The notes under the pieces are model-generated. The model was not told the DNA's origin and made no database searches. It saw only the letters and a list, made by a program, of their open reading frames with translations. A stretch of DNA of 35,713 nucleotides from a virus. Positions within the stretch are counted from its first letter, which is position 1. Each line of letters opens with the position of its first letter. Shown piece after piece: positions 2,484-30,259 of the stretch. Both the position numbers and the translations under genes were made by a program. The stretch covers positions 1 through 35,713 of the IMG/VR virus record IMGVR_UViG_3300032401_000034. One strand, 5' to 3'.

Positions 2484-3097
2484 GCCAGTCCCCAAAGCTA
2501 GCAAGTGTGCTGGATCGCGCTGCGGGCGCGAAGCTGAAGGGCCTGCGCGTGGCGTTGCCGGCACGCGTGGAAACGTACGACGAGGCTACGCGCCTGGTCT
2601 CGGTGCAGCCGCTGATCATGGACGGGTTCGTCGATGAGTCCGGCAATCGTAAGGCCGATCGGCTGCCTGTGATCAACGATGTGCCGATCGTGTTTCCAGG
2701 ATCGGGTGGCGCGCGTGTCCGTTTCCCGGTACTCAAAGGCGACACCGTGTTGCTGGTGTTCTCGTCGTCGAGCCTCGACAAGTGGCTCGTCAGTGGCGGC
2801 GAGGTAGATCCTAAAACCGACCACCGCCATGCTCTGACGGATGCAATTGCGATCCCGGGCCTACAAGCGACCCCCGATGCCGGCGACGCCGATGTGCTTA
2901 TCGAGTTTACCGATAACGGCCAGATCCATGCGGGTGGCTCTGACGAACTGGTCAAGCGTAGCGAGTTCTTGCAGCACGGCCATGGCTACCTACCAGGGCC
3001 GGGGCTCGCCGTTGCGACGACCGGCCCTATCACGAACATTGCGCCAGACGGCTCTGCGGTTCTATTCCCTGGCACATCCATCCTGAAGGGTGCCTAG
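2480..3097 (+). CDS. Central spike protein with Gp138 N-terminal (OB-fold) domain
   Basis: The protein is 205 aa. Residues about 25-115 match the Gp138 N-terminal domain: 'VETYDEATRLVSVQPLI', then VPIVFPGSGGARVRFPVLKG and DTVLLVFSSSSLDKW. A short repetitive beta region follows and the C-terminus carries HGH at residues 166-168. In P2 gpV and phi92 gp138 an HxH motif near the spike tip coordinates an iron ion, so the same role is inferred here. The trimeric spike would pierce the outer membrane during sheath contraction. The gene sits between hub and gp25-like wedge, as expected. Confidence 0.82.
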   Translation: MSQSPKLASVLDRAAGAKLKGLRVALPARVETYDEATRLVSVQPLIMDGFVDESGNRKADRLPVINDVPIVFPGSGGARVRFPVLKGDTVLLVFSSSSLDKWLVSGGEVDPKTDHRHALTDAIAIPGLQATPDAGDADVLIEFTDNGQIHAGGSDELVKRSEFLQHGHGYLPGPGLAVATTGPITNIAPDGSAVLFPGTSILKGA

Positions 3098-3099
3098 CG

Positions 3100-3504
3100 A
3101 TGCCGATCCTGAGTACAGACCAAATCGACCTGCTGCTAGACTCGGACGGTGAGATCGATCTGACCAGCGGCGGTGTCGAACTGTCCTCTGGGATTCAGGC
3201 CGTTGCACAGGGAATCAGAATTGCGATCTTGTTCGTGCAGGGCGAATGGTTTCTCAATCTGGACGAGGGCGTGCCCTGGTTTGAAAACGACACCGTGATT
3301 ACGACCAAGGCCATCATGGGTCAGCGCTTCGACGAGATCAAAGTCCTATCCGCGCTGCGCACCGCAATCCTGGGCGTACCGGGGGTGCTTTCGATCGCAG
3401 CGCTGGGCGTAGAATTTAACGGCGCTACACGTGGCATCGCCGTGACCTGGCGCGCACGAACCGAATTTGGCGACACCGCCGAAGAGACCACGGAGCTTAG
3501 CTAA
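3100..3504 (+). CDS. Baseplate wedge protein, gp25-like
   Basis: A 134-aa protein with the typical gp25/GPW pattern: an N-terminal 'DLLLDSDGEIDLTSGG' segment, a helix with AVAQGIRIAILFVQGEWFLN, the conserved WF-L-x2-G-V-P-W stretch, then a C-terminal region (TAILGVPGVLSI) and beta strands. gp25 proteins join wedges to the sheath and help start contraction. The stop codon TAA shares its last A with the ATG of the baseplate J gene (TAATG at 3502-3506), which suggests coupled translation. Confidence 0.85.
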   Translation: MPILSTDQIDLLLDSDGEIDLTSGGVELSSGIQAVAQGIRIAILFVQGEWFLNLDEGVPWFENDTVITTKAIMGQRFDEIKVLSALRTAILGVPGVLSIAALGVEFNGATRGIAVTWRARTEFGDTAEETTELS

Positions 3505-4880
3505 TGCCGTACGGTCTAACCCTAGAGGGTTTCTACCCCAAAACGCTGGAAATCATCCGCGAGGAGCTTGACGCCGCGCTGCGTTCGGTGTTCGGCCTAT
3601 CGCTACCGCTTGGTGACAAGACGCTACTAGGCGTCATCAACGGCATCATGGCAGAGCAGTATGCAACTCTCTGGGAGCTGGCCGAGGCGGTCAACGCCAG
3701 CCAGGATCCCGACCAGGCTAGCGGCGCTGGGCTCGAGGCGCTGGCACTGCTCACTGGCACCTTCCGTGGGCTTTCGATTAGCTCAACCGTTACGCTGACG
3801 CTGACCGGTACACCGGCCACGCTGGTAGCGTCAGGCTCTACAGCTGCAACGGACAGCACTGCTGTCAGCTTCGCTACGAACGCAGACGCGACGATTGCCG
3901 CGCTCACTGCCTGGACGATCACCACGGCGTATGTCGCGGGGGATCGCGTCACGAACGCGAGCCGTGCCTACCAGTGCACCATCGCCGGGACCTCTGCCGG
4001 AGCAGGCGGCCCCACGACTACGGCCAATGCGATCGTGGACGGTACCGTGACGTGGACCTACCTCGGAGACGGTACAGGTGCGATTGACGTACTTGCGCTA
4101 TCCGTTGACGACGGGCCGCTCGAGGGTACCGCCAGGGACATCATCGTGATCACCACGCCAGTCGGTGGCTGGTCCAGTGTGATCAACCTGCTAGATGCAG
4201 TGCCTGGGCACAACGCCGACACTGACGAGGAACTACGATTGCGGCGCGAGGATGAACTGACCGCGCCTGGCACCTCGACGGCGGACGCGATCCGCACCGC
4301 ACTGCTACAGATCGGTACCGTCACCAGCGCGACCGTGTTCGTCAACGACACGGACGTGACCGACGTCGATGGCGTGCCCCCGCACTCGATCGAGGCTCTG
4401 GTGCGCGGTAGTGGCACGGCCGAAGAGGACCAGATCATCTGGAATACACTTTTTGCCAACGTCGCTGCGGGGATCGGGACCTACGGCCCCTTGCATCAGG
4501 GCACCGTCACTGATAGCTCCGGGGTAGACCATACGGTCAGCTTCTCGCGCCCGACCGAAATCACGATTCATATCGCGGTCACCCTGAAGTACGATGCTGC
4601 CACTTATCCGACCGATGGTGATGTGCAGGTCGCGAGTGCGATCGTTGCATACGGTGACAGCCTCTCGATTGGTCGTGATGCCGTGGCCACTTCGCTAGGT
4701 GCACAGGCATTCAAGATCGCCGGTGTGCTCGATGTGCCACGCTCGGGAAGTCTGGGCGGTACCCTGATCCGCATCATTGCCTCGCCGATCTCCGATGCCA
4801 CGATCGTGATCACGTCGCGTCAGCTCGCGGTCTACGACACGAGCCGAGTCGCGGTTATCAGCACGCCAGCGACGCCGTAA
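3504..4880 (+). CDS. Baseplate J-like wedge protein with inserted carbohydrate-binding-like module
   Basis: The 458-aa sequence follows the baseplate J (P2 gpJ / T4 gp6) family: N-terminal helices (TLEIIREELDAALRSVFG), an 'AGLEALALLTG' segment, a central region ending GHNADTDEELRLRREDEL, and a C-terminal alpha/beta part. Residues about 133-190 look inserted: AWTITTAYVAGDRVTN, RAYQCTIAGTSAG and VTWTYLGDG resemble the small aromatic carbohydrate-binding fold of chitin-binding (CBM5/12-like) modules. Wedges of J-like proteins form the outer baseplate, so an exposed sugar-binding insert could touch the host surface. The J assignment is firm; the function of the insert is inference. Confidence 0.85.
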   Translation: MPYGLTLEGFYPKTLEIIREELDAALRSVFGLSLPLGDKTLLGVINGIMAEQYATLWELAEAVNASQDPDQASGAGLEALALLTGTFRGLSISSTVTLTLTGTPATLVASGSTAATDSTAVSFATNADATIAALTAWTITTAYVAGDRVTNASRAYQCTIAGTSAGAGGPTTTANAIVDGTVTWTYLGDGTGAIDVLALSVDDGPLEGTARDIIVITTPVGGWSSVINLLDAVPGHNADTDEELRLRREDELTAPGTSTADAIRTALLQIGTVTSATVFVNDTDVTDVDGVPPHSIEALVRGSGTAEEDQIIWNTLFANVAAGIGTYGPLHQGTVTDSSGVDHTVSFSRPTEITIHIAVTLKYDAATYPTDGDVQVASAIVAYGDSLSIGRDAVATSLGAQAFKIAGVLDVPRSGSLGGTLIRIIASPISDATIVITSRQLAVYDTSRVAVISTPATP

Positions 4881-4889
4881 GGAGACGCT

Positions 4890-7463
4890 ATGTCTGCACC
4901 TATCTCAGCCCAGCAACCCCTGCTAATCAATGGCACTACCGATCCGTCAGTCACGCCTCCAGCTGGGACGTGGCCAGTCGGTCAACTCTACCTGCGTACG
5001 ACCGTTGGCGCAGCACAAGTCTGGCAGAAGAACAATACTGGCGTTAATGACTGGGTGATCTCTGGTGTCGTTAACACTGGAATCCTAACGATCTCGGCTA
5101 CTGGTCTAACTGCTGCCATTCTTAATACGCTACTGACGAGCTACGCGCATGTCATTGTCGGACCGGGTACGATCAACGTGGACGTGTCCATCGTCGTGCC
5201 GACCGGGACCACGCTGGAAGGCGCTGGGCCGTTGACGCTGTTCCGCGCGACCGCCGGGCTTGGCACTGGCAACCCGGTCATCAAGTCGCTCAACACCATC
5301 GGTGCGACCATCAAGAACCTCAAGGTCACGCGCGACCTGGGCCTGGGTGGCGACGGCATCGAAGTCTACGGCGACGACATCACGATCAAGGACTGCACCA
5401 TCGACGACTGCATCCGGGGTCTACGGACAACCGACCGCACGCTGATCGACGGGCTCATGTCAAAGCGGATCCTGATCGAGAACTGCCGCGCGCAGATGGT
5501 CACGGCCCCGACCGCGCTCAACTCCGCGTTCGGGATCCTGATGTCGACGGTAGAGGACATCACCCTGCGCGAGTGCTACTTCTCGAACAACTGGCTGGAC
5601 GGCGTCAAGGGCAACCGCTTCGTCACCAGGCTCAAGTACATCGGCGGCGCGAGCCACTTCAACGGCCGGTCCAGCACCGACGCTGGCGACGGCATCGACG
5701 TGTTCGCCGGGCTCAACAACACCGTCCTCATCGATGGCGTGTCGTTCTACGACAACGGCATCGGAGCCATCGGTGGTAACGGCGCGGTGTTCAAGTCGAT
5801 CCACGATACGACTCCGGCGACGAATCCGAGCAACCCGGAATGGGGACAGATTCGCGGCGCTCGCATTATCAACTGCTACATGGACAACAACAAGGGATCG
5901 GCCATCGCGCTCGAGGGCGTCGTCGACTCCGTGCTAGGGGCTACCGCGAAGCTGCGCCCACGTGGTGCGCAGATTCACATCGCGAACTGCGTCGCCACCA
6001 ACCACTTCAACGCGGGCATCTACATCAACACGTTCCAGACGACGATCTCCCAATGCACGTTGCGAAACAACGGGCAGCAAGGCATCGCAGTCGGACCCCA
6101 GTCACGCGACGTCCTCATCGACCAGTGCTTGTTCTGGGGCAACGGCCACACGACCGTCGCCACCTACAATCAGGTCGACCTTCTCGCTGACGGTGCCGAC
6201 GCCCCCAAGCGCGTGCGCGTCTCCAACTGCCGCTTCAACGGCAAGGAGGCCACCGACGCGCTGGCGAACACGATCATCACGGACGCGGACTACACGGCCC
6301 TGACGACGTACTCGAAGAACGCGATCCACGTCGACAACCTGTCGACGCAGGTCTACGTCGAGGATTGCACCGCCGAGTTCCACACGCAGGACGCGAGCAA
6401 CTTCGGCTACCCGGTCATCACCAACAGCACGTCGCTGTCTGGTGACACCGTGACCGTGCGACACAAGACCACGCAGGGCAACCCCAACGCCAGGTTCTAC
6501 GGTGGGATCGGGTCCATCATCCAATCGCAGGCCGCTGGTGGCATCGACTCTGGTCTGTGGGTCAAGACTCGCGGCGCTGCCTCAGACACCAATGGCTGGT
6601 TCAACGTCAAGATCTTGCAGGACCAAGGCATCTACGGAGACGGCATCGATGGCCACAAGGTCGTGGCAGGCACCGAGACGCTGACTCGCGCGATGTACTG
6701 GGAGACGCTGAGTGTCCCTGTTGCGACCACGCTGATCACCGATGGATGGCCGATCTTCGTCAGAGGCAACATCGGTACCGCTGCGGTTGGTTCGATGTCA
6801 CTCCAGAGCGCGATGCTCGTCGCAGGTACCGTGAAGTGCAACGGTGCTGACGCCGTGACCACGGCCGGAGGCGTGGCGGGCAACACGGGCGAGGTGCCCA
6901 GCGGCGCGGCTGGTGGTGCGGGCGGTATCGCGGCTGGCTCGGCTGGCACTGGCGTGACCACGTCACGGCGTATGGCGAGCACGGGCGGTGCCGGTGGCGC
7001 AGGATCCGGTGGCGCTGGCGGTGCTGGTGGCACGTCCACTGGCTTCGCGTTCATCGAAGGCGACGTGCGCGACCTGTCGACGATTCCCTACGGCAAGACG
7101 CACACCGGGGCCTATGCCGAGGGCGGGCCTGGCGGTGGCGGCGGTGGCGGTGACGGTGCGCTTGCTGGCGGTGGTGGTGGTGCGGGCGGTGGCGTCATGG
7201 TCATCTGCGCACGGTCGATCTCCAACGCAGGCACCATCTCAGCGAATGGTGGTGCTGGTGCGGCCGGGCCGACGAACAACACGGGCGGCGGTGGCGGCGG
7301 TGGTGGCGGCCTCATCCTCATCGTCACCGGCAACGGTCCTCCTGGGGCCAGCGCCGGTTACGTTGTCGAGGTGCTTGGTGGCGCAGGCGGTGCTAGTGGT
7401 GGCGGCGCTGGTGTCGCAGGCTCGGCTGGTGTTGACGGCATCTGCATTGCGGTGAGGGCATAA
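4890..7463 (+). CDS. Tail spike/fibre: baseplate-anchor N-terminus, beta-helix, glycine-rich C-terminus
   Basis: An 857-aa receptor-binding candidate with a strong ribosome site (AAGGAGA, about 6 nt before ATG). Residues 1-55 have the pattern of phage fibre N-termini (GTWPVGQLYLRTTVGAAQVW). Residues about 67-517 show repeats of a right-handed parallel beta-helix, with 'IKNLKVTRDLGLGGDGIEVY', 'ITIKDCTIDDC', 'LIENCRAQ' and 'VLIDQCLFWGNG' rungs, as in pectate-lyase-type depolymerases. Residues about 657-857 are dominated by Gly runs separated by short hydrophobic segments such as GGGVMVICARSISNAGTI. The same layout makes up the three small proteins encoded downstream. Enzyme activity on capsule or LPS is possible, but no catalytic residues can be assigned. 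Confidence 0.8.
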   Translation: MSAPISAQQPLLINGTTDPSVTPPAGTWPVGQLYLRTTVGAAQVWQKNNTGVNDWVISGVVNTGILTISATGLTAAILNTLLTSYAHVIVGPGTINVDVSIVVPTGTTLEGAGPLTLFRATAGLGTGNPVIKSLNTIGATIKNLKVTRDLGLGGDGIEVYGDDITIKDCTIDDCIRGLRTTDRTLIDGLMSKRILIENCRAQMVTAPTALNSAFGILMSTVEDITLRECYFSNNWLDGVKGNRFVTRLKYIGGASHFNGRSSTDAGDGIDVFAGLNNTVLIDGVSFYDNGIGAIGGNGAVFKSIHDTTPATNPSNPEWGQIRGARIINCYMDNNKGSAIALEGVVDSVLGATAKLRPRGAQIHIANCVATNHFNAGIYINTFQTTISQCTLRNNGQQGIAVGPQSRDVLIDQCLFWGNGHTTVATYNQVDLLADGADAPKRVRVSNCRFNGKEATDALANTIITDADYTALTTYSKNAIHVDNLSTQVYVEDCTAEFHTQDASNFGYPVITNSTSLSGDTVTVRHKTTQGNPNARFYGGIGSIIQSQAAGGIDSGLWVKTRGAASDTNGWFNVKILQDQGIYGDGIDGHKVVAGTETLTRAMYWETLSVPVATTLITDGWPIFVRGNIGTAAVGSMSLQSAMLVAGTVKCNGADAVTTAGGVAGNTGEVPSGAAGGAGGIAAGSAGTGVTTSRRMASTGGAGGAGSGGAGGAGGTSTGFAFIEGDVRDLSTIPYGKTHTGAYAEGGPGGGGGGGDGALAGGGGGAGGGVMVICARSISNAGTISANGGAGAAGPTNNTGGGGGGGGGLILIVTGNGPPGASAGYVVEVLGGAGGASGGGAGVAGSAGVDGICIAVRA

Positions 7464-7465
7464 CC

Positions 7466-8194
7466 ATGGCGGCTGTAACCAAACTTCCTGCTGGCGGCTT
7501 CCGGTTCGGTACGTTCACCGGGACGCCCTACGACGCGGCGACGACCGCTCGACTCGACACGGCGCAGACCTACACGAAGGCGCAGCGGGTCGCGTCGGTG
7601 GCGCTCACCGACGGCGCGAACATCGCGACCGACGCGAGCTTGTCCAACGTCTTCACGGTGACACTGGGCGGCAACCGCACGCTCGACAACCCGACCAACT
7701 TGGTCAGCGGTGGCCGGTACGTCTGGATCATCACCCAGGACGGCACCGGGTCGCGGACGCTCGCCTACGGTGCGAACTTCTCCTGGCCTGGCGGCGTCAC
7801 CCCTGTACTGCCTACGGCGGCGGCGGCGATCTCCAGAATCGACGCCACCTACAACGGCACGGTCCTGGTGTCGACCATCAGTGCCGTGTCGACCACGCCT
7901 GCCAGCGACCCGGTCATCACCGCCGTCAAGACCTCGGCGTACAACGCAGTGCTCGGCGATTTCGTGCGGTGCGATCCGAGCGGCGGCGCGTTCACGGTCA
8001 CGCTGCCTGCACTGGCGACCGCCAGCATCGGCAAGGTCATCAACGTGAAGAACACCACCAGCTCGGCGGGGGCGATCACGATTGCCGCAACCGGCGGCGA
8101 CACCATCGATACGGCGGCGTCGACCAGCATCGCGGCTGGCTTCGCGTCGCTGTCGTTCATCGCCACGACGGCGAGCACCTGGGCGATCTACTGA
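7466..8194 (+). CDS. Tail fibre-like structural protein
   Basis: This 242-aa protein is Ala/Thr/Gly-rich and almost wholly beta-like. After a short N-terminus it carries AQTYTKAQRVASVALTDGAN and FTVTLGGNRTLDNPTNLVSG, a pattern common in phage fibre shafts and knobs. A second similar block lies at residues about 160-242 (CDPSGGAFTVTLPALATA, then a 'GKVINVKNTTSSAGAITIAA' strand pair). It starts 2 nt after the spike gene stop and ends 1 nt before the first glycine-rich adhesin gene. Structural role is inferred from composition and neighbours; receptor binding is not shown. Confidence 0.65.
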   Translation: MAAVTKLPAGGFRFGTFTGTPYDAATTARLDTAQTYTKAQRVASVALTDGANIATDASLSNVFTVTLGGNRTLDNPTNLVSGGRYVWIITQDGTGSRTLAYGANFSWPGGVTPVLPTAAAAISRIDATYNGTVLVSTISAVSTTPASDPVITAVKTSAYNAVLGDFVRCDPSGGAFTVTLPALATASIGKVINVKNTTSSAGAITIAATGGDTIDTAASTSIAAGFASLSFIATTASTWAIY

Positions 8195-8195
8195 G

Positions 8196-9041
8196 ATGAC
8201 CTATCGTGGTACGCCAGTAGCGAGCGGCTTCCTCGGAGATGGCTCCGACGGATCGTTGACTGTTGCGGGTACCACCACGCTCGCGGCCGACAAGAACTAC
8301 ACCACGGTTACAGTGCAGAGCGGCGGCGTCCTCAAGACGCAGGGCTACCGGGTTCGCTGCCAAGGGACGATCACCGTAGATTCCGGCGGCATCATCTCAG
8401 CGGACGGCTTGGCGGCTAGTGGATCCACTGGCGGCAGTACCTACGCCGCCGGATCCATCGGAGGCGCTCAGGCTAACGGAGCGACGGGCGTGAACGGTGT
8501 CGGCGTCGCGGGCACGGCTATCGGCGGCATCGGGCTCGGCGGTGCAGGCGGTGCAGGCGGTGCAGGCACTAGCGGTGCCGGTGGTGCCGGTGGTGCCGTC
8601 ACCGCACCGACCGCAGCGCAAGGCACAGCCGATAGCCTACCGGTGATCTCGTCAGGTTTCCTGCTCGGATCTGCGTCCAGATTGCTCGGCGGTGCCGGAG
8701 GCGGATCAGGCTCCGGGTCAGGCATCGCCGCAGGCGGCGGCGGCGGAAGCGGTGGCGGTGTGATGCTGCTAGCGGCAACCAAAATCATCAACAACGGGAT
8801 CATCAGAGCGCGCGGAGGCGCGGGCGGAACCCCGGCATCGACCAACTGCGGCGGCGGCGGCGGCGGCGGCGGCGGCGTGGCTTTCCTGATGTGCTCGGTC
8901 AAGCCGGGCGTCGATGGCAACGGAACCGCCGTCGATGTTTCAGGCGGTGCGGGCGGTGCCTCGGGCGGCGGCACGGGCGTCGCTGGATCGGCGGGCGCGA
9001 CCGGCCAGGTGTTCTACTGCCAGCCTTCGGGTGGACGATGA
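8196..9041 (+). CDS. Glycine-rich adhesin-like tail protein, copy 1 of 3
   Basis: 281 aa starting at the ATG 1 nt after the previous stop; the frame is open further upstream, but the two sister proteins begin with the same M-[ST]-Y-x-G motif. Residues 1-75 form a conserved beta-solenoid-like block (TYRGTPVASGFLGDGSDG, TLAADKNYTTVTVQSGG, LKTQGYRVRCQGTITVDSGG). The rest is Gly-rich, with hydrophobic segments 'GGGVMLLAATKIINNGIIRA' and 'GGVAFLMCSVKPG', and ends VFYCQPSGGR. Nine consecutive GGC codons occur. Long Gly runs with periodic hydrophobic breaks recall polyglycine-II adhesins such as Salmonella phage S16 gp38. That comparison is structural inference, not homology. Confidence 0.72.
   Translation: MTYRGTPVASGFLGDGSDGSLTVAGTTTLAADKNYTTVTVQSGGVLKTQGYRVRCQGTITVDSGGIISADGLAASGSTGGSTYAAGSIGGAQANGATGVNGVGVAGTAIGGIGLGGAGGAGGAGTSGAGGAGGAVTAPTAAQGTADSLPVISSGFLLGSASRLLGGAGGGSGSGSGIAAGGGGGSGGGVMLLAATKIINNGIIRARGGAGGTPASTNCGGGGGGGGGVAFLMCSVKPGVDGNGTAVDVSGGAGGASGGGTGVAGSAGATGQVFYCQPSGGR
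8322..8365 (+). repeat. 44-bp repeat, copy A (identical to 9164-9207)
   Basis: A 44-bp stretch in adhesin copy 1 is identical, base for base, to 9164-9207 in copy 2, while flanking bases differ at codon third positions. It codes for the GG-V-LKTQGYRVRCQG core. Identity at synonymous sites points to recent duplication or gene conversion. Confidence 0.85.
8538..8564 (+). repeat. Three tandem 9-bp units (GGCGGTGCA) in adhesin copy 1
   Basis: Three perfect GGCGGTGCA units encode Gly-Gly-Ala repeats and are followed by related GGTGCC units. Unit length is a multiple of three, so gain or loss would keep the frame. Confidence 0.85.
8850..8876 (+). repeat. (GGC)9 trinucleotide tract in adhesin copy 1
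   Basis: Nine consecutive GGC codons give nine glycines. The perfect period-3 region extends a few bases each side (8848-8877). The sister genes use mixed glycine codons at the matching place, so this tract looks like a local expansion. Confidence 0.85.
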
Positions 9042-9874
9042 GCTATCGCGGTATGCCAGTTGCGAGCGGTTTCCTCGGCGGTGGCGCTGATGGCGTCGGC
9101 ACGATTTCGGGGACCACCACGCTCGCGGCCGATGTGAATTACACGTCGCTGACCGTTCAATCTGGCGGCGTCCTCAAGACGCAGGGCTACCGGGTTCGCT
9201 GCCAAGGCACGATCACCGTCGACTCCGGTGGTATCATCCAGGCGGACGGCCTTGCGGCTAGCGGATCCACTGGCGGCGCTACCACGTCGACGCAGACCGT
9301 GAGCGGCAGCAGCGCGGGCGGCAACGGCAATACGGGGAACGGGGTAGCCGGGTCGAATGTCTCCGATGCATTTGGCGGCGCAGGCGGCGGCGGCGGCGCA
9401 GGCACCGGAACGGGCTCGGCTGGTGGAACCGTTACGGCCAGCATCGCCAACATCGGTCCAGTCGACATGCTCCCCCCTATCACGACAGGCAGGACGCAGG
9501 GGGCATCGAACGTGGCTGCCCGCAGTGGCGGCAGTGGTGGCGGCGGCGGTGGCGATGGCGTAAATGCAGGCGGCGGTGGCGGCGCGGCGGGCGGCGTGAT
9601 GCTCCTAGCGGCGACTAACATCGTCAACAACGGCACCATCCGCGCGAAGGGCGGCGCGGGAGGCGATGGCTCGGCTGGGAATTCCGGCGGTGGCGGTGGC
9701 GGTGGCGGTGGCGTGATCTTCCTGATGTGCATGGTCAAACCTGGGACGAACGGCAACGGCACCGCTGTCGATGTCTCAGGCGGCGCAGGAGGAACGAAAA
9801 CCGGGACCGGCGTCAACGGATCGACCGGCGCGACCGGCAACGTCTACTGGTGCCAGCCTCCGAGGGGACAATGA
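9038..9874 (+). CDS. Glycine-rich adhesin-like tail protein, copy 2 of 3
   Basis: 278 aa; the ATG overlaps the stop of copy 1 (ATGA). The first about 75 residues closely match copy 1 (SYRGMPVASGFLGGGADG, LKTQGYRVRCQGTITVDSGG), including a 44-bp stretch identical at the DNA level. The middle differs: copy 2 has a Thr/Ser/Asn-rich insert (TSTQTVSGSSAGGNGNTGNG) where copy 1 has another sequence. The segments GGVMLLAATNIVNNGTIRAK and GGVIFLMCMVKPG are conserved, and the C-terminus is VYWCQPPRGQ. Conserved ends with variable middles suggest duplication followed by divergence of exposed loops. It is probably part of the receptor-binding apparatus. Confidence 0.72.
   Translation: MSYRGMPVASGFLGGGADGVGTISGTTTLAADVNYTSLTVQSGGVLKTQGYRVRCQGTITVDSGGIIQADGLAASGSTGGATTSTQTVSGSSAGGNGNTGNGVAGSNVSDAFGGAGGGGGAGTGTGSAGGTVTASIANIGPVDMLPPITTGRTQGASNVAARSGGSGGGGGGDGVNAGGGGGAAGGVMLLAATNIVNNGTIRAKGGAGGDGSAGNSGGGGGGGGGVIFLMCMVKPGTNGNGTAVDVSGGAGGTKTGTGVNGSTGATGNVYWCQPPRGQ
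9164..9207 (+). repeat. 44-bp repeat, copy B (identical to 8322-8365)
   Basis: Second copy of the 44-bp identical stretch, in adhesin copy 2. The pair is directly oriented about 840 bp apart, so homologous recombination between them would delete or swap the intervening adhesin sequence in frame. Confidence 0.85.
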
Positions 9875-10719
9875 GTTACGACGGCGTACCAGTCGCGAGC
9901 GGATACCTCGGCAGCGGATCCGATGGCGTTGTCACGATCTCGGGGACGACCACGCTGACCAGGGACATGGAGTATTCGACGCTGACCGTGACCGGCACGG
10001 GGATCCTGAAGTGCCAGGCGTTTCGCGTGCGCTGCACCGGGACGATCACTGTGGCTTCAGGGGGTGTGATCAGGACGCAGGGGACGGCTGCGAGCGGATC
10101 TTCCGCAGGGACCGGGGATGGATCGGGAAACGGCACACTCGCTCCGAATCTAGCTGGTGGGAATGGACAGCTAGGGGTTGGGTCAAACGGAGTCGCTGCC
10201 ACCATCTCGTTCGGCGGCGCAGGCGGCGCAGGCGGCGCAGGGTCCGGCGGCGCGGGCGGCGCGGGCGGGACCGTCACCGCACCGACGACATCGCAGGGGC
10301 TCGCGACTAACCTGGCGACGGTCGGCACCGGCTACTTTGAGGGCATCGCATTGGCGAGCAGGGTCGCGGGCGGCGGTGGTGGCGCAGGCGGCGGCGGCGA
10401 TGGCGCGAGCGCGGGCGGCGGCGGTGGGGCTGCCGGCGGCACTCTACTGATCGCCGCTCAGAGCATCATCAACAACGGCACCATCAGCGCCAACGGCACT
10501 GCGGGGGCGGATGGCCCCGGTGCCAATCGTGGCGGGGGCGGGGGCGGCGGGGGCGGCGTGGTGTTCCTGATGTGCATGGTCAAGCCTGGCGTCGACGGCA
10601 ACGGCAACGCGGCGACCGCATCTGGTGGGGCTGGTGGAGCTAGCGGCGGCGGGTCTGGCGTGGCTGGCTCTGCGGGCTCGGCGGGCGTAGTATACTGGTG
10701 CCAGCCTCCCGTGTCGTGA
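9871..10719 (+). CDS. Glycine-rich adhesin-like tail protein, copy 3 of 3
   Basis: 282 aa; the ATG overlaps the stop of copy 2 (ATGA). The N-terminal block is kept but more diverged (SYDGVPVASGYLGSGSDG, 'LTRDMEYSTLTVTGTGILKC', FRVRCTGTITVASGG). The Gly-rich part has 'GGTLLIAAQSIINNGTISAN' and GGVVFLMCMVKPGVDGNGN, ending VYWCQPPVS. Copies 2 and 3 share the VYWCQPP end, which copy 1 has as VFYCQPS. A conserved Cys in the F-L-M-C segment and one near the C-terminus occur in all three and could support disulphide or packing contacts. Whether the three are used together or alternatively is unknown. Confidence 0.72.
   Translation: MSYDGVPVASGYLGSGSDGVVTISGTTTLTRDMEYSTLTVTGTGILKCQAFRVRCTGTITVASGGVIRTQGTAASGSSAGTGDGSGNGTLAPNLAGGNGQLGVGSNGVAATISFGGAGGAGGAGSGGAGGAGGTVTAPTTSQGLATNLATVGTGYFEGIALASRVAGGGGGAGGGGDGASAGGGGGAAGGTLLIAAQSIINNGTISANGTAGADGPGANRGGGGGGGGGVVFLMCMVKPGVDGNGNAATASGGAGGASGGGSGVAGSAGSAGVVYWCQPPVS
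10213..10239 (+). repeat. Three tandem 9-bp units (GGCGGCGCA) in adhesin copy 3
   Basis: Three perfect GGCGGCGCA units encode Gly-Gly-Ala repeats at the place equivalent to the 9-bp tandem in copy 1, but with a different synonymous base. This suggests independent expansion or homogenisation within each copy. Confidence 0.85.
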
Positions 10720-20004: not shown

Positions 20005-20237
20005 TTGGCCGCCGCCGCGCGCACAGCCGCGTCTTTGCTTTCCAAGAGGCGGCGCAAGCACACCGTGCGCTCCGGGTTTCGGGGCAGCATCGTGAGCACA
20101 TCGGCCAGTCTGGCGAACGGCTCTGACACCATCTGAAGGTACGGTGGCAGGTGCGCGAACGCGAAGAACTGCATGATGTGCTCGGGCTGTGCCTCGGGTG
20201 GTCGCGTCGACTCGAGCGCGGTCTCTGGTACGTTCAT
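20001..20237 (-). CDS. Small conserved phage protein (HLPPYLQ type), 78 aa
   Basis: 78 aa. From residue 22, MQFFAFAHLPPYLQMVSEPF then LPRNPERTVCLRRLLESKDA match a small protein that recurs in many tailed phages, with unknown function. The upstream ATG at 20237 overlaps the methyltransferase stop (ATGA); the internal MQFF may be the ancestral start. It is probably helical. Confidence 0.72.
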   Translation of the reverse strand: MNVPETALESTRPPEAQPEHIMQFFAFAHLPPYLQMVSEPFARLADVLTMLPRNPERTVCLRRLLESKDAAVRAAAAK

Positions 20238-21466
20238 GCTGCCTCTAACGGGTCAGAGCTAGCTGGTATTCCCAGCGCATGCTTGATACGGCCTTCAAGG
20301 ATCGGGAGGTACTCGTCCGTCAGCTCAACGCCGATGAAGTCCATGCCTTCCGCCAAAGCTGCCACTCCGGTGGTCCCGCTGCCAGCAAAAAGATCAAGGC
20401 ATGTGCCACCGGCAGGGGTGATGAGACGGATCAGATAGCTCATCAATGCAACACTTTTCTTCGTAGGATGAATGTTTGCGCGACCGCCTGTGCGGCCGGC
20501 GCCGGCGCGGGGGTTGTTCACCCCGGCGCTGCCGTCCTCGCGCCCGGTCGCCTCACCGCCTGAGTGCTTGGGCAAGTGATCAAGACCGGCCTCGGTCTCG
20601 GCCTTGGAAGGCTTAGGGCAGTAGAACATCCGCGACGCACCGCCGCCGTCGTCTGACGGGTTGGTGGTCGTACGGTCGGCGGTCTTGAACGTGCCGATCG
20701 AGTCGCTCGCCTTGTGCAGATGCTTGCTGCCGCGCTTGGGCTTTGTGATCGGGCCTTGTGCGTCCAGCAGAGCGCCAGCACCTTCGTCCAGCACCAGGTG
20801 CGATGGCCAGCGGCCCAGGCTGCGAGCACCGAGCGTCTCCGCAGCCTGGGCCGCTTGCATCGCTTCGACGTCCGAGGTAGCGCCGGGTTGTACCGCATCA
20901 TGATGTGTACGGTTCGCCGGGTTGCTCTTAGGCGTGTGATGCACCTCGCCCGCGCTAGCGATCCGGCACGCGTCGATGTTGAGCACGCCGGTGCCGTACT
21001 TTGCGAAGTTGGCCGCGACCGTGCCCTCGATCGGCTTTCGCACCAGCCACCAGTCCTCGATCGACGGCTTGAGCGCCGTACCCGTGCCATCCGGGATCTC
21101 TGCCGATGCGGACGTGAGGCTTTTAGGGAAGCCGTTCAAGAACGCATGTGCGATGCGGTCTCTGACCTCGAAACCTGCGTCCTCGAGCGCGCGCTGCGTC
21201 CAGCCCGAGGTTCTCGGCAGTGCCCACACCAGGCCATAGCCCCCGGGCTTGAGCACCGTCAGAGCACCCTTCATGATCCCGGCGAGCCAGGCGATCCAGT
21301 GGTCGCGGCCGCCCTTGTCGGAATCCCACTCGCGCCCCATGAAGCCGATAGCACTGGGCGGGTCGGTCACGATCGAATCGACGCTGTTTGGCTCGAGTAC
21401 GTCGGTGATGTGCTCCGCGTCGCCGTGCAAGATCACGGCCCGATCGTGTTGGTACAGTACGCGCAT
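20234..21466 (-). CDS. DNA methyltransferase (N4-cytosine/N6-adenine, beta class)
   Basis: 410 aa from ATG 21466, which has AGGGTGA just upstream; a GTG 6 nt earlier is less likely. Motif IV is TDPPS at residues 34-38 and motif I FAGSGTTG at 360-367, so the order IV then I marks the beta class. Between them lies a long target-recognition region. The C-terminal part also has HPTKKSVALMSYLIRL, the usual segment before motif I. No restriction partner is seen nearby, so it is probably an orphan enzyme that protects phage DNA. Target site is unknown. Confidence 0.85.
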   Translation of the reverse strand: MRVLYQHDRAVILHGDAEHITDVLEPNSVDSIVTDPPSAIGFMGREWDSDKGGRDHWIAWLAGIMKGALTVLKPGGYGLVWALPRTSGWTQRALEDAGFEVRDRIAHAFLNGFPKSLTSASAEIPDGTGTALKPSIEDWWLVRKPIEGTVAANFAKYGTGVLNIDACRIASAGEVHHTPKSNPANRTHHDAVQPGATSDVEAMQAAQAAETLGARSLGRWPSHLVLDEGAGALLDAQGPITKPKRGSKHLHKASDSIGTFKTADRTTTNPSDDGGGASRMFYCPKPSKAETEAGLDHLPKHSGGEATGREDGSAGVNNPRAGAGRTGGRANIHPTKKSVALMSYLIRLITPAGGTCLDLFAGSGTTGVAALAEGMDFIGVELTDEYLPILEGRIKHALGIPASSDPLEAA

Positions 21467-21481
21467 GGTCACCCTAAACGG

Positions 21482-22014: not shown

Positions 22015-22181
22015 GACGCCGCGCTGCCCTTCAGCAGTCCATACAGCGCCAGGGCGATATAGTACGCCTCCATGACTTCCTCATACGTCGCCATGCCGCC
22101 CTTGTACGCAACCTGGATGCGCTCATACTCCGCGAGCGCGAGCGCGTACCCGTGATCAGCCGCGCGCTGGGCCGGTGTCAT
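22011..22181 (-). CDS. Small hypothetical protein, 56 aa
   Basis: ATG 22181 overlaps the polymerase stop (ATGA) and TGA 22011 overlaps the next GTG. The protein is helical and Tyr/Ala-rich (HGYALALAEYERIQVAYKGG, YEEVMEAYYIALALYGLLKG). No family is recognised. Confidence 0.55.
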   Translation of the reverse strand: MTPAQRAADHGYALALAEYERIQVAYKGGMATYEEVMEAYYIALALYGLLKGSAAS

Positions 22182-23272
22182 GCCGCGATCGCTCCGTCCG
22201 GTGTCCAGACCATCAAGCGCCCGTTGCTATCTCTGACGCACTTCGCCCCCTTGTAGAGCCTGGCCATCAACGTAGGTTCAGCATGGCAGGCGGGCGCGAG
22301 ATCCGGGCAGACCTCGGCCAGCGCCGTCTCCATCACCGTCGACAAGCGATCGCACGCCTCCGGCGCGATGCTGCGGGGATGCTCGGCGACCAGCTCATCA
22401 TGTTGGAGCACGATCACGCGACTGCCGCGCAATGCGGTGTTGCCGGTGTAGCATTCCTTACTGGCGCGAATCAGCGCCAGCTTGGCCGCGCGCGCGAGCA
22501 AGGCTTGGAAGTATCCGTTGGCTGCGCTGTTGAAATTGACCCCGCCTCTAACGCGCTTGTCAACGTGCTGGGTGACATAGCCCAGCTCCTCGACCTGATG
22601 GGTGACGAAGTCGAAGTAGGGTTTGTTCTCTGGATAGGTCCGGTACCAGTGGCTGCGCAGCGTCGCCGCGCATTCGATGCACTCGAGGCACGTCGGCGGG
22701 CCGGGGCGCTTCTTGTACTCGGTGACCTTGACACGCCCGCACGCCGGTGCGTTGTTCATGAGGATGCAGAACCGCAGGCCCTTGTACCGCGTGCCATCGG
22801 CCGCGACGGTGTCCGGGCCTTGCTTGCGTTGCTGCAAGACCATTTTCCATTCACCCATGCCGCCCGGGAAGCCGAAGTTACCCGGCTTGGCGGCTTGGCG
22901 CGCGTTGCCTGCGTCCTTGTCACCGGCATCGATCTTCAGATTGAACGAATCGTAGTCCTGACCTGTCATCGTCGCGCCTAGTAGGTTGTGCGGCTTCTTG
23001 CCGGCCAGGAGCGCGTCAGCGAGCTTCGACCAGCCGACGATCCACATGCACGATTGCGCATGCGTGACCAGCTCGCCGCCTTCGAAGTCGCACGAGCCCA
23101 GCAGGTAGCCAGGGCGCGATCGGATACAGTCGCGCACACCGACGAGCCCGGTACCCTTGAGCGCATTGCTCAAGCGCGCCGAGACTTGGCGCGGCATGAG
23201 CATGACCGCGCCGTCGTACGAGACGCGCGAAGTGTCAAGCATGGGGTTGGGTCGTAGCGTCAGTGCTGGCAT
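22178..23272 (-). CDS. Family A DNA polymerase, polymerase (palm/fingers) half of a split enzyme
   Basis: 364 aa from ATG 23272, which has AGGG five bases upstream and follows the exonuclease stop (TGACATG); an in-frame ATG at 23284 has no usable spacing. Motif A is CDFEGGELVTHA (D62, E67), motif B RQAAKPGNFGFPGG (R125, K129, F133) and motif C LQHDELV (H291, D292, E293), so the catalytic residues are intact. Between B and C four cysteines (C178, C195, C198, C201) could hold zinc. The exonuclease and thumb parts lie in the gene directly upstream. Together they should form the phage replicative polymerase. Confidence 0.85.
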   Translation of the reverse strand: MPALTLRPNPMLDTSRVSYDGAVMLMPRQVSARLSNALKGTGLVGVRDCIRSRPGYLLGSCDFEGGELVTHAQSCMWIVGWSKLADALLAGKKPHNLLGATMTGQDYDSFNLKIDAGDKDAGNARQAAKPGNFGFPGGMGEWKMVLQQRKQGPDTVAADGTRYKGLRFCILMNNAPACGRVKVTEYKKRPGPPTCLECIECAATLRSHWYRTYPENKPYFDFVTHQVEELGYVTQHVDKRVRGGVNFNSAANGYFQALLARAAKLALIRASKECYTGNTALRGSRVIVLQHDELVAEHPRSIAPEACDRLSTVMETALAEVCPDLAPACHAEPTLMARLYKGAKCVRDSNGRLMVWTPDGAIAA

Positions 23273-23273
23273 G

Positions 23274-24632
23274 TCAGCCCTCATCCTCGTCGGATTCGTC
23301 GTCGGCCTCTACGCCCTCGGGCACGTAGCCATTCCTGAGAAATGGGATGAACACGCTTGAGATCTTCTGATCCTCGAGGAACACCGCGAAGTCCATCAGC
23401 AGCTCATCGCCGCTCTCGGTCAGGGTATCCCTACCCTTGCTCACGCCAGGGTACGCCTCGGGGTTCTTGGGGACCGTGCGCGGCACGATCTCGGTGAGCG
23501 TCAGTCCGGTGCCGTCGCACGGTACACACTTCACGGCGGGCACCTTCGTGAACCCGCCACGCTTGAGCGGCTTGCCCTGCTTGGCACTCTCGACCTTGCC
23601 CACGCCGGTGCAGATCGTGCAGGTGACGTTAGCGCCGTACGCGAGCGCGACCATGCGCTTGATCAGCGCGGTGTCTTGTGACCGCCTGCCATCGGGCTTG
23701 AGCTTGGCGCGCAGGATCCCGGCCTCGATAAACGGCTTGATGTCGTCGTCATAGGTCGCATTGACCGCGGCCTCGAGTATGTTGACCGCGTCCTGGTCGA
23801 CGTCGAAACCCCACGCCGCTCCGAGGTGCAGCGCCCAATGCGCGTAGCACTGGAACGACACATCGTGCAGGTTGTGGTTGGCCCGGCGCGCGGTGCACGG
23901 CGGTGTGACGCCCATGCCCAGCACGACGCCACAATCAAGGCATGCGGTGCCCTCGCTGCCAGGTCCGCCGGATGGCCAGCGATGCTCTCGACCGCTTGCA
24001 GGAATCGCGCCGATCTGTGCCAGGCACGCCTCGAGCGTATTGACCGCGTCGTCGACCGGGTAGATCTTCGCGTCGTCGGGCCAGTCGGAGATCGGGATAT
24101 CCTCGAGCAGCGCGTACGATTTGCGCCAACGGTCATTGACTTTTGCGTTATTGCGGCCCAGCACCAGGCGCACGACCGTCTCGAGGGAGTACCGCGAGGT
24201 GCGCTTGCCCGTGTTCGGGTCGCGCATGGTGCCGCCGGTGTTGGTATCGAACCCGAGCCGGCCCAGCGCGATCGCGTGCTCGGTCTCGGCGATCTGCACG
24301 TCGAACACGCGGCCGTTCATCGGGTCATCGCCGCCGTAGGCTTCGAAGATCGCCGGCATCAGATCGATGCCCAGCTTGGCCGCCGCGACCGCTGCGACGA
24401 GCATGTCAAACGGCGCATTGGCCGCTACCAGGATCCGGCCTTCGATGATGGCCTGGAACGCGGCTAACGCGTTGGGCTTGTCGAGTAGCTCACCTGCGAT
24501 GCGATCCTGATCGACCATGGCGATCGAACCGCAGACCAGCGGCGGTGCCAGCAGCCCCGGGGCGATCAAGTGCGTCTCGCAGTCGTACGCAACGCCCAGC
24601 GTAGGGATCGCGGCTAGGTGCTCGGGCTTCAT
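23274..24632 (-). CDS. Family A DNA polymerase, 3'-5' exonuclease half of a split enzyme, with two Cys clusters
   Basis: 452 aa. Exonuclease residues are D17 and E19 (YDCETHL), D76 (ANAPFDM) and Y191/D195 (YPVDDAV), the DEDD-type proofreading set. A first Cys group (C231, C234, C246) and a DnaJ-like pair CTICTGVG and CVPCDGTG (C338, C341, C369, C372) are inserted before the thumb-like end. The protein closes with an acidic tail ADDESDEDEG, which looks like a true C-terminus. The polymerase half follows in the +1 frame, so a sequencing indel is possible but the separate ribosome site argues for two proteins. Confidence 0.8.
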   Translation of the reverse strand: MKPEHLAAIPTLGVAYDCETHLIAPGLLAPPLVCGSIAMVDQDRIAGELLDKPNALAAFQAIIEGRILVAANAPFDMLVAAVAAAKLGIDLMPAIFEAYGGDDPMNGRVFDVQIAETEHAIALGRLGFDTNTGGTMRDPNTGKRTSRYSLETVVRLVLGRNNAKVNDRWRKSYALLEDIPISDWPDDAKIYPVDDAVNTLEACLAQIGAIPASGREHRWPSGGPGSEGTACLDCGVVLGMGVTPPCTARRANHNLHDVSFQCYAHWALHLGAAWGFDVDQDAVNILEAAVNATYDDDIKPFIEAGILRAKLKPDGRRSQDTALIKRMVALAYGANVTCTICTGVGKVESAKQGKPLKRGGFTKVPAVKCVPCDGTGLTLTEIVPRTVPKNPEAYPGVSKGRDTLTESGDELLMDFAVFLEDQKISSVFIPFLRNGYVPEGVEADDESDEDEG

Positions 24633-25313: not shown

Positions 25314-25536
25314 CGTCGCGCTTGCCCAGCCACTCTGACGCTGCCGTGAATGGCGGGACCACGACGGCCACGACTATCAGGGTAGCTACAATGACCAGGA
25401 GCAAGGCGCATGGAATCCAAAAGGGCGATAGCACCCAGAACCACGACCAGTCAACGTTGTTCGTCAGCTTCAGCGTGATGAAGATGGCGAGCAGGATGGT
25501 GGTGATCGGCGTTCCGGTCTCGGATGCCTTGCTCAC
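25294..25536 (-). CDS. Two-helix membrane protein, 80 aa
   Basis: GTG 25536 overlaps the stop of the HD gene (GTGA). Two hydrophobic helices are clear: TTILLAIFITLKLTNNVDW and IPCALLLVIVATLIVVAVVV, followed by a charged C-terminal tail. Small membrane proteins beside replication genes are often host-takeover or exclusion factors; an additional holin-like role is also conceivable. Function cannot be assigned. Confidence 0.6.
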   Translation of the reverse strand: MSKASETGTPITTILLAIFITLKLTNNVDWSWFWVLSPFWIPCALLLVIVATLIVVAVVVPPFTAASEWLGKRDDEHAPK

Positions 25537-26120
25537 GGCCGGATGCCTTTCTCGTGCTCTGGGAACAAGTCGCAGAACATGTCAAGGAAGATCTCCTCGG
25601 CGTAGCGCGGCGGCCAACCGTCAATGTAGACCTCGAGCGGCTCGATCCCTGCCGTCCAGTTGTCGACCGGTGGCCCGAGCAGCGCACGTGCCTCATTCGC
25701 CAGTATGCGGTGATCGAGCGCCGCGACCGCGGCCCGTGAGATGTCCGTCGATGCCACTCCGAACTTGGCGAAGATCAGCGCCTCGACCTTGGCCTCGGCC
25801 TCGCGGAAGAACGCAAACTCGGGCAACACCTTGAGCGGCCGCGGCACGTCACCTAGCAGGTACTCGGCCGCGTCGTGCAAGAGCGCCTCACGGCGGTAGC
25901 CTTCAGGCGCGGCTACGGCCAGCAGCACGGAATGCTCCGCGACCGAGTACATGTGCTTTGCATGGCCGTTGTACCGGCAGAGCAGCGATAGGCTGTGCGC
26001 GATATCGCGAATGTCGATGTCCTCGAGCCTGAGATCGAGCGGATACACCTTCCTAGTCGTGAAGGTTTGAAGGAACGCGCCGCGACGGTGGCCGCTCGCG
26101 CTATGCTCGGTGGTGTTCAT
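25533..26120 (-). CDS. HD-domain phosphohydrolase (nucleotide-directed)
   Basis: 195 aa starting at the ATG adjacent to the upstream TAG. The conserved phage pattern is DIDIRDIAHSLSLLCRYNGH, MYSVAEHSVLLA (H63), LLHDAAEYLLGDVPRPLK (H82-D83) and D136 (ALDHRILANE), giving the HD metal site. Close relatives hydrolyse nucleoside mono- or triphosphates and help manage dNTP pools. The DatZ dATPase of aminoadenine phages is also an HD enzyme, but this protein looks like the common phage type. Substrate is unknown. Confidence 0.82.
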   Translation of the reverse strand: MNTTEHSASGHRRGAFLQTFTTRKVYPLDLRLEDIDIRDIAHSLSLLCRYNGHAKHMYSVAEHSVLLAVAAPEGYRREALLHDAAEYLLGDVPRPLKVLPEFAFFREAEAKVEALIFAKFGVASTDISRAAVAALDHRILANEARALLGPPVDNWTAGIEPLEVYIDGWPPRYAEEIFLDMFCDLFPEHEKGIRP

Positions 26121-29704: not shown

Positions 29705-30259
29705 TCAGGTACCCTTGTGCCCGTCGTCGCCCAGCGTCACCTTGAATTGGGTACGGCTTGCGACGTGATAGACGACGATCCCTTCGGGGTTCATGAACGG
29801 CAGGACCTTGGAACCGGTGGTGCGCAGCGTCTCGAGCGCGGCCGCAACCGCGGTATCAGTGAAGTCACCCTGGTACAGCAGTGGCACCAGACTGACGCAC
29901 GACGGCAGGACCGCATCGGGTGCCGTCCAGCGCAAAACGTCGAACAACGCGAAGCGCTTCTCGATCATACCATAGTTGCGCTGGATACCAGCGCCGAACC
30001 ACTCACCGAAGTGACGACCCGGCCCGAGCTTGCGCAGCTCGGCTTCATGCTCGTACGCCCAGCGCGCGAAGCCGTAGTTGTCGGCCTCGGGGGTGATCCA
30101 CCGATTGCGGCTGCCGACCAGCATCGGTGCGTCGGGTTCCGGGAAGCAGATCTGCCCATTCGAACCGTCGATCTTTTCGGTGATCACACAGCCCCGGCGC
30201 AGGCGCGGGATCTTGCGGTACTCCTGAAATTCAGGGACGGGTGGGGTAGGATCGCTCAC
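29705..30259 (-). CDS. RNA ligase family protein
   Basis: 184 aa from GTG 30259, overlapping the upstream stop (GTGA). The adenylation motif is EKIDGSN with K29 as nucleophile, followed by SRNRW (R51), FGEWFGAGIQRNYG (E86), FALFDV, EGIVVY (E159) and FKVTL (K173): nucleotidyltransferase motifs I to V of the Rnl2/Rnl5-like RNA ligases. It lacks room for a C-terminal domain. Such enzymes reseal nicked RNA, including host tRNAs cut by anticodon nucleases. Direct substrate is unknown. Confidence 0.85.
   Translation of the reverse strand: MSDPTPPVPEFQEYRKIPRLRRGCVITEKIDGSNGQICFPEPDAPMLVGSRNRWITPEADNYGFARWAYEHEAELRKLGPGRHFGEWFGAGIQRNYGMIEKRFALFDVLRWTAPDAVLPSCVSLVPLLYQGDFTDTAVAAALETLRTTGSKVLPFMNPEGIVVYHVASRTQFKVTLGDDGHKGT

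Follow-up and report, generated by a model that had tools for sequence, protein, structure and literature searches.

Gene pair and junction

The window, a stretch of 35,713 nt of viral DNA (IMG/VR record IMGVR_UViG_3300032401_000034), carries on its minus strand two abutting open reading frames (ORFs) that share out the domains of a family A DNA polymerase. The features of the pair are:

23274–24632, minus strand: gene 1, 452 aa, encoding the 3'–5' exonuclease and thumb of a family A DNA polymerase (ORF and translation)
22178–23272, minus strand: gene 2, palm plus fingers half, carrying motifs A, B and C (ORF; 364 aa counted from the ATG at 23272)
23270–23276, minus strand: junction TGA-C-ATG, comprising the gene 1 stop, a single base and the gene 2 start (sequence)
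23278–23281, minus strand: AGGG Shine–Dalgarno-like site, 5 nt upstream of the ATG at 23272 (sequence and scan)
23282–23284, minus strand: alternative in-frame ATG of gene 2, giving an 11-nt overlap with the end of gene 1
23309–23311, minus strand: TAG closing the polymerase frame upstream of gene 2 (sequence; stop marked in the frame scan)
23277–23303, minus strand: acidic tail at the C terminus of gene 1, DDESDEDEG, predicted to be disordered
23502–23621, minus strand: segment resembling a zinc ribbon (CxxC...CxxC) within the thumb region of gene 1, common to relatives
23144–23188, minus strand: 15-residue insert VSARLSNALKGTGLV in gene 2, in the loop before VRDC

Read on the minus strand, the junction is GAGGATGAGGGC-TGA-C-ATG. 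The ORFs and the junction sequence agree in placing gene 2 in the +1 frame relative to gene 1, as a preliminary description of this DNA had proposed; its further observations of an AGGG (23281–23278) and an ATG (23272) belonging to the second gene after the first stop, and of an acidic tail closing the first gene, were also borne out. The start-site scan gave no suitably spaced Shine–Dalgarno sequence for the alternative ATG at 23284–23282. In a codon-usage scan trained on the other window genes, the coding signal moves from the exonuclease frame to the polymerase frame at the stop/start. Similar stop/start overlaps link the adjacent genes of the operon at 24629/24632 and 22178/22181. The halves are one base apart, with no spacer, group I intron or endonuclease ORF between them, and intein-like sequence was seen neither at the close of gene 1 nor at the start of gene 2, in contrast to one relative (L079) that has an intein-like insert in the next loop. 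A group I intron was rejected as an explanation, since neither the window nor five loci gave a match to Rfam.

Also near the polymerase on the minus strand are an RNA-ligase-like ORF (29705–30259), an N6/N4 DNA methylase (20234–21472) and a weak HD-domain match (25533–26120); the split relatives described below likewise have methylase and HD proteins close to their polymerase genes. On the plus strand, three consecutive similar glycine-rich ORFs (8082–10719) appear to have arisen by tandem duplication of a tail or fibre-like gene.

Catalytic residues and domain border

Gene 1 contains the exonuclease residues D17/E19, N72/D76 and Y191/D195, within the DnaQ/DEDD-type motifs DxE, NxxxFD and YxxxD. 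Gene 2 contains motif A (D66, E71), motif B (R129, K133) and motif C (H295, D296, E297), numbered as in P0002, which is counted from the upstream ATG. Locating the residues in their respective ORFs confirmed the initial claim that the exonuclease residues all fall in one gene and the palm and finger motifs in the next. D66, R129/K133 and H295-D296-E297 are conserved across 46–47 relatives, both catalytic aspartates of motifs A and C being present, and gene 2 retains the arginine that is invariant in the TGR-type motif (R20 of P0002). The locus thus has the palm/finger motifs A, B and C and the DEDD-type exonuclease motifs by which family A is recognized, while the exonuclease and polymerase parts, expected in a single chain, occupy two ORFs that differ in frame. 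Profiles from Pfam, PHROGs and the PDB all assigned gene 2 to family A; taken alone, it matched Pfam DNA_pol_A below the cut-off, and its profile matched Pol I structures with E 8e-35. The gene 1 profile matched the Klenow fragment (E 3e-8), T7 polymerase and the viral exonuclease ExnV1.

On the Klenow chain, the gene 1 profile ends at residue 319 and the gene 2 profile begins at 338. Thus, the break separates the thumb from the first palm strand and lies at the thumb–palm border named in the preliminary description, with the refinement that the thumb belongs with the exonuclease gene. AlphaFold2 models of each half alone were confident, with pLDDT values of 90.5 (gene 2) and 89.4 (gene 1), falling below 50 only at the two ends created by the split, which are predicted to be disordered (residues 444–452 of gene 1 and 1–9 of gene 2), and in the last residues of gene 2. 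Query-normalized Foldseek TM-scores against T7 polymerase were modest, ∼0.52–0.60 for gene 2 and 0.31–0.34 for gene 1; the domains of gene 1, on their own, need not hold their mutual arrangement.

Gene 1 has a further Cys-rich, zinc-ribbon-like insert (23880–23990, minus strand) that was not seen in the nearest relatives. The loop before VRDC, which holds the 15-residue insert in gene 2, is occupied in relatives by inteins, HNH ORFs or splits.

Single-chain and split relatives

Relatives were gathered by alignment-based scans of IMG/VR, with a profile check run on every locus, and were counted after removal of same-contig repeats; near-identical records of the window were possibly left out of the searches. 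Scans of viral contigs with single proteins returned no relatives, whereas the alignment-based scans did, and the plasmid and genome collections held no useful relative. About 131 of the 138 relatives, the closest included, are single-chain, and the sequences closest to the window genes by BLAST are also single-chain. The only clear relative in the phage databases, isolate ctsHD2 (MW202816.1, UOF82274.1), shares the domains, motifs and replication neighbourhood of the window (41% identity in the polymerase part, 33% in the exonuclease part) and is one chain of 729 aa. The same domains, motifs and neighbourhood are found in L003 (3300038379_000225; 54% polymerase identity), a single chain of about 712 aa, and neither of the two has a stop or a start in the thumb–palm loop.

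Splits occur in seven contigs in addition to the window, four at the same loop and three at the next. The four are L087 (3300037478_000323), L094 (3300037478_000320), L089 (3300037743_000136) and L147 (3300036823_000160). Like the window, they encode exonuclease plus thumb and palm plus fingers as separate genes divided in this loop, but one or two small ORFs stand between the halves where the window has one base. In L087 the exonuclease gene ends in FLKSGLDA and a stop, an 88-aa ORF follows, and the polymerase gene begins MLTLNPNPLLATGR; L094 has a 94-aa ORF in this position and L089 two small ORFs. The exonuclease gene of L147, which ends in EEPEEASDAE and a stop and so carries an acidic tail like that of gene 1, is followed by an 83-aa Cys-rich ORF and a polymerase gene that starts with GTG and reads TRTVPLTLRPN. 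Stops and starts touch or overlap throughout these four loci, and the replication gene cassette around the polymerase is common to the window and the split relatives, all of which keep the two genes adjacent and in the order exonuclease, then polymerase. The preliminary description had proposed a search for homologues with the same split and had held that uniformly single-chain homologues with the same flanking residues would refute it; most are indeed single-chain, but these four are cut at the same loop, so that the refutation fails.

The spacer ORFs are small and unrelated, and their proteins gave no Pfam match above the cut-off. Those at L087:6268–6534, L094:6235–6519 and L089 ∼6397–6690 matched Sigma70_r4 below the Pfam cut-off (E 6e-5 to 8e-5), and such an ORF may encode a DNA-binding protein or a third subunit.

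The three next-loop splits lie before VREC: L029 has an ATGA overlap beside a seven-G run (∼4980–5030), and in L037 (∼4400–5013) and L152 (∼2990–3390) the gene is broken by an inserted HNH-like ORF. This loop is an insertion hot spot. The family A polymerase of L079 (3090–5834) has its intein-like insert, starting CFSGD and ending VTGN before C, in the palm loop before VREC. An apparent frame break in the thumb of L101, near the contig end, was not counted among the seven. A further viral scan, aimed at spacer-less splits like that of the window, found none. Three close single-chain relatives (L143, L145 and L148) have long unbroken insertions in the thumb–palm loop. Two family A polymerase genes (L104 and L112) lie on one 77-kb contig (2844571421_000002) and possibly belong to two neighbouring prophages.

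Selection and history of the halves

Among the three close split relatives L087, L089 and L094, dN/dS was 0.14–0.21 for the exonuclease half and 0.07–0.25 for the polymerase half; both halves are under purifying selection in these loci. The exonuclease of L087 is closer to that of L089 (91%) than to that of L094 (87%), whereas its polymerase is closer to that of L094 (97%) than to that of L089 (76%), and the trees support the conflicting placements (support 98/91 and 100/99). Thus, the exonuclease and polymerase halves of the trio have different histories, which suggests that split halves have been exchanged separately between phages. On the 25-row polymerase and exonuclease trees, three changes are required to explain the split state, and a constraint grouping the five split rows into one clade was rejected in both (p-AU 0.0014 and 0.0053). 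The AU tests thus reject a single origin of the split and point to recurrent fission, or to splits alternating with refusion.

Comparison with known split polymerases

The preliminary description regarded a two-subunit replicative polymerase as unusual; split polymerases are, however, already known from phages. The gp43A and gp43B halves of the T4-like Aeromonas phage 25 co-purify and show polymerase activity (PMC2988022). The T4-like Aeromonas phages 25 and 44RR resemble the window in having a two-gene replicative polymerase, but theirs is of family B, and the genes are separated by a seg endonuclease gene or by untranslated spacer DNA where the window has one base. Cyanophage Mic1 encodes a family A polymerase in two ORFs, ORF86 and ORF85, exonuclease first (PMC7156551); 298 bp termed an intron lie between them, and the break is inside motif A rather than at the thumb–palm border. 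In the OM43 phages MEP401 and MEP402, a family A polymerase is split into ORF13 and ORF15, exonuclease first, with a small ORF between the halves and the break within the polymerase domain, again not at the thumb–palm border; most of their relatives also have a split polymerase (PMC10580990). ExnV1 (PDB 7r0t; 314 residues), from a hot-spring virus metagenome, was read by its authors as the product of a truncated polymerase gene (PMC9629493). Like gene 1, it represents the exonuclease portion of a family A phage polymerase encoded by a gene of its own; no partner gene was reported. Our literature search, outside which most subscription papers fell, found no report of repeated fission at the thumb–palm border, and it is this repetition at this border that is new, split phage polymerases being already known.

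A probable two-chain polymerase and its alternatives

We consider it highly probable that the locus reflects a genuine fission in the thumb–palm loop, with coupled translation of the two genes and two chains that very probably assemble as a proofreading polymerase. The ORFs are intact, each half has its full catalytic set, the break is exact with respect to domains, the same break occurs in four relatives and selection acts on the halves in three; from these we infer translation as two chains, their association and their use in replication. A Pol I-like phage polymerase gene would have been cut in the loop joining thumb and palm, so that gene 1 encodes an exonuclease–thumb subunit and gene 2 a complete palm–fingers subunit. 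The pair would be translated in tandem, coupled through TGACATG and gene 2's own Shine–Dalgarno site, and the chains would assemble non-covalently around the primer-template through the thumb–palm seam, by analogy with gp43A/gp43B of phage 25.

The preliminary description had named a single-base error as the main alternative: an assembly or sequencing indel within 23277–23308 would have broken an ordinary single-chain gene. This agrees with the single-chain state of about 131 relatives, the nearest among them, and with the rarity of spacer-less splits, the only other being L029, next to its seven-G run. An unbroken acidic loop is also conceivable, since L143, L145 and L148 carry long unbroken insertions there, and these weaken the long acidic loop as proof of a split. 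The absence of a spacer ORF in the window, unlike the four same-loop relatives, counts against fission, and for this reason an indel, although unlikely, keeps some weight. However, the permitted zone is just 32 nt, contains no long homopolymer and coincides with the loop at which four relatives are split; a single-base slip could not have produced those splits, whose gaps are filled by whole ORFs. No further frame break was found in ∼13.4 kb of other window genes, over which the proteins of relatives each match in one frame. Gene 2 also has its own ATG and Shine–Dalgarno directly after the stop. When every frame-breaking position in unbroken genes was scored, a stop with a nearby in-frame ATG and Shine–Dalgarno turned up at 0.1% of positions in window genes and at up to 4.7% in relatives, before location in the one domain-border loop is even required. 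The shared cut point in four related contigs argues for a genuinely bipartite enzyme and against a sequencing slip.

Programmed +1 frameshifting at UGA-C, yielding some full-length chain besides the short exonuclease, seems very improbable. The +1 direction fits, as does the Shine–Dalgarno-like AGGG ahead of UGA and C, an arrangement somewhat resembling the release factor 2 frameshift site, but GGC-UGA is a poor slip codon, there is no stable structure downstream (z −0.73), and frameshifting cannot join the halves in the four same-loop relatives because a whole ORF lies in between. Hardly any likelihood attaches to two separately acting proteins, an independent proofreading nuclease and an independent polymerase that form no complex. 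The disagreement of the exonuclease and polymerase trees in the split trio, which implies separate exchange of halves, and the soluble stand-alone Pol I exonuclease ExnV1 (PMC9629493) favour such independence; on the other hand, with the thumb placed in the exonuclease gene, the palm half by itself is missing part of what grips the primer-template, and adjacency and gene order are constant in all split relatives. Beyond fission at this locus, a repeated and lasting two-subunit state of the family A polymerases in this phage group, cut at the thumb–palm hinge, with the exonuclease–thumb and palm–finger modules exchanged separately between phages and an additional small protein, sigma-region-4-like or Cys-rich, that could be gained between them as a regulator or clamp, is possible but doubtful.

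The fission indicates that a family A phage polymerase apparently tolerates separation exactly where its proofreading/thumb portion adjoins an intact catalytic portion, and the relatives indicate fission at this border more than once within one phage group. Split genes of this type are easily written off as frameshift errors of metagenomes, which calls for caution. The thumb–palm border marks a natural split point for polymerase engineering, and such enzymes offer a natural test of how a primer is handed over between exonuclease and polymerase sites without a covalent link.
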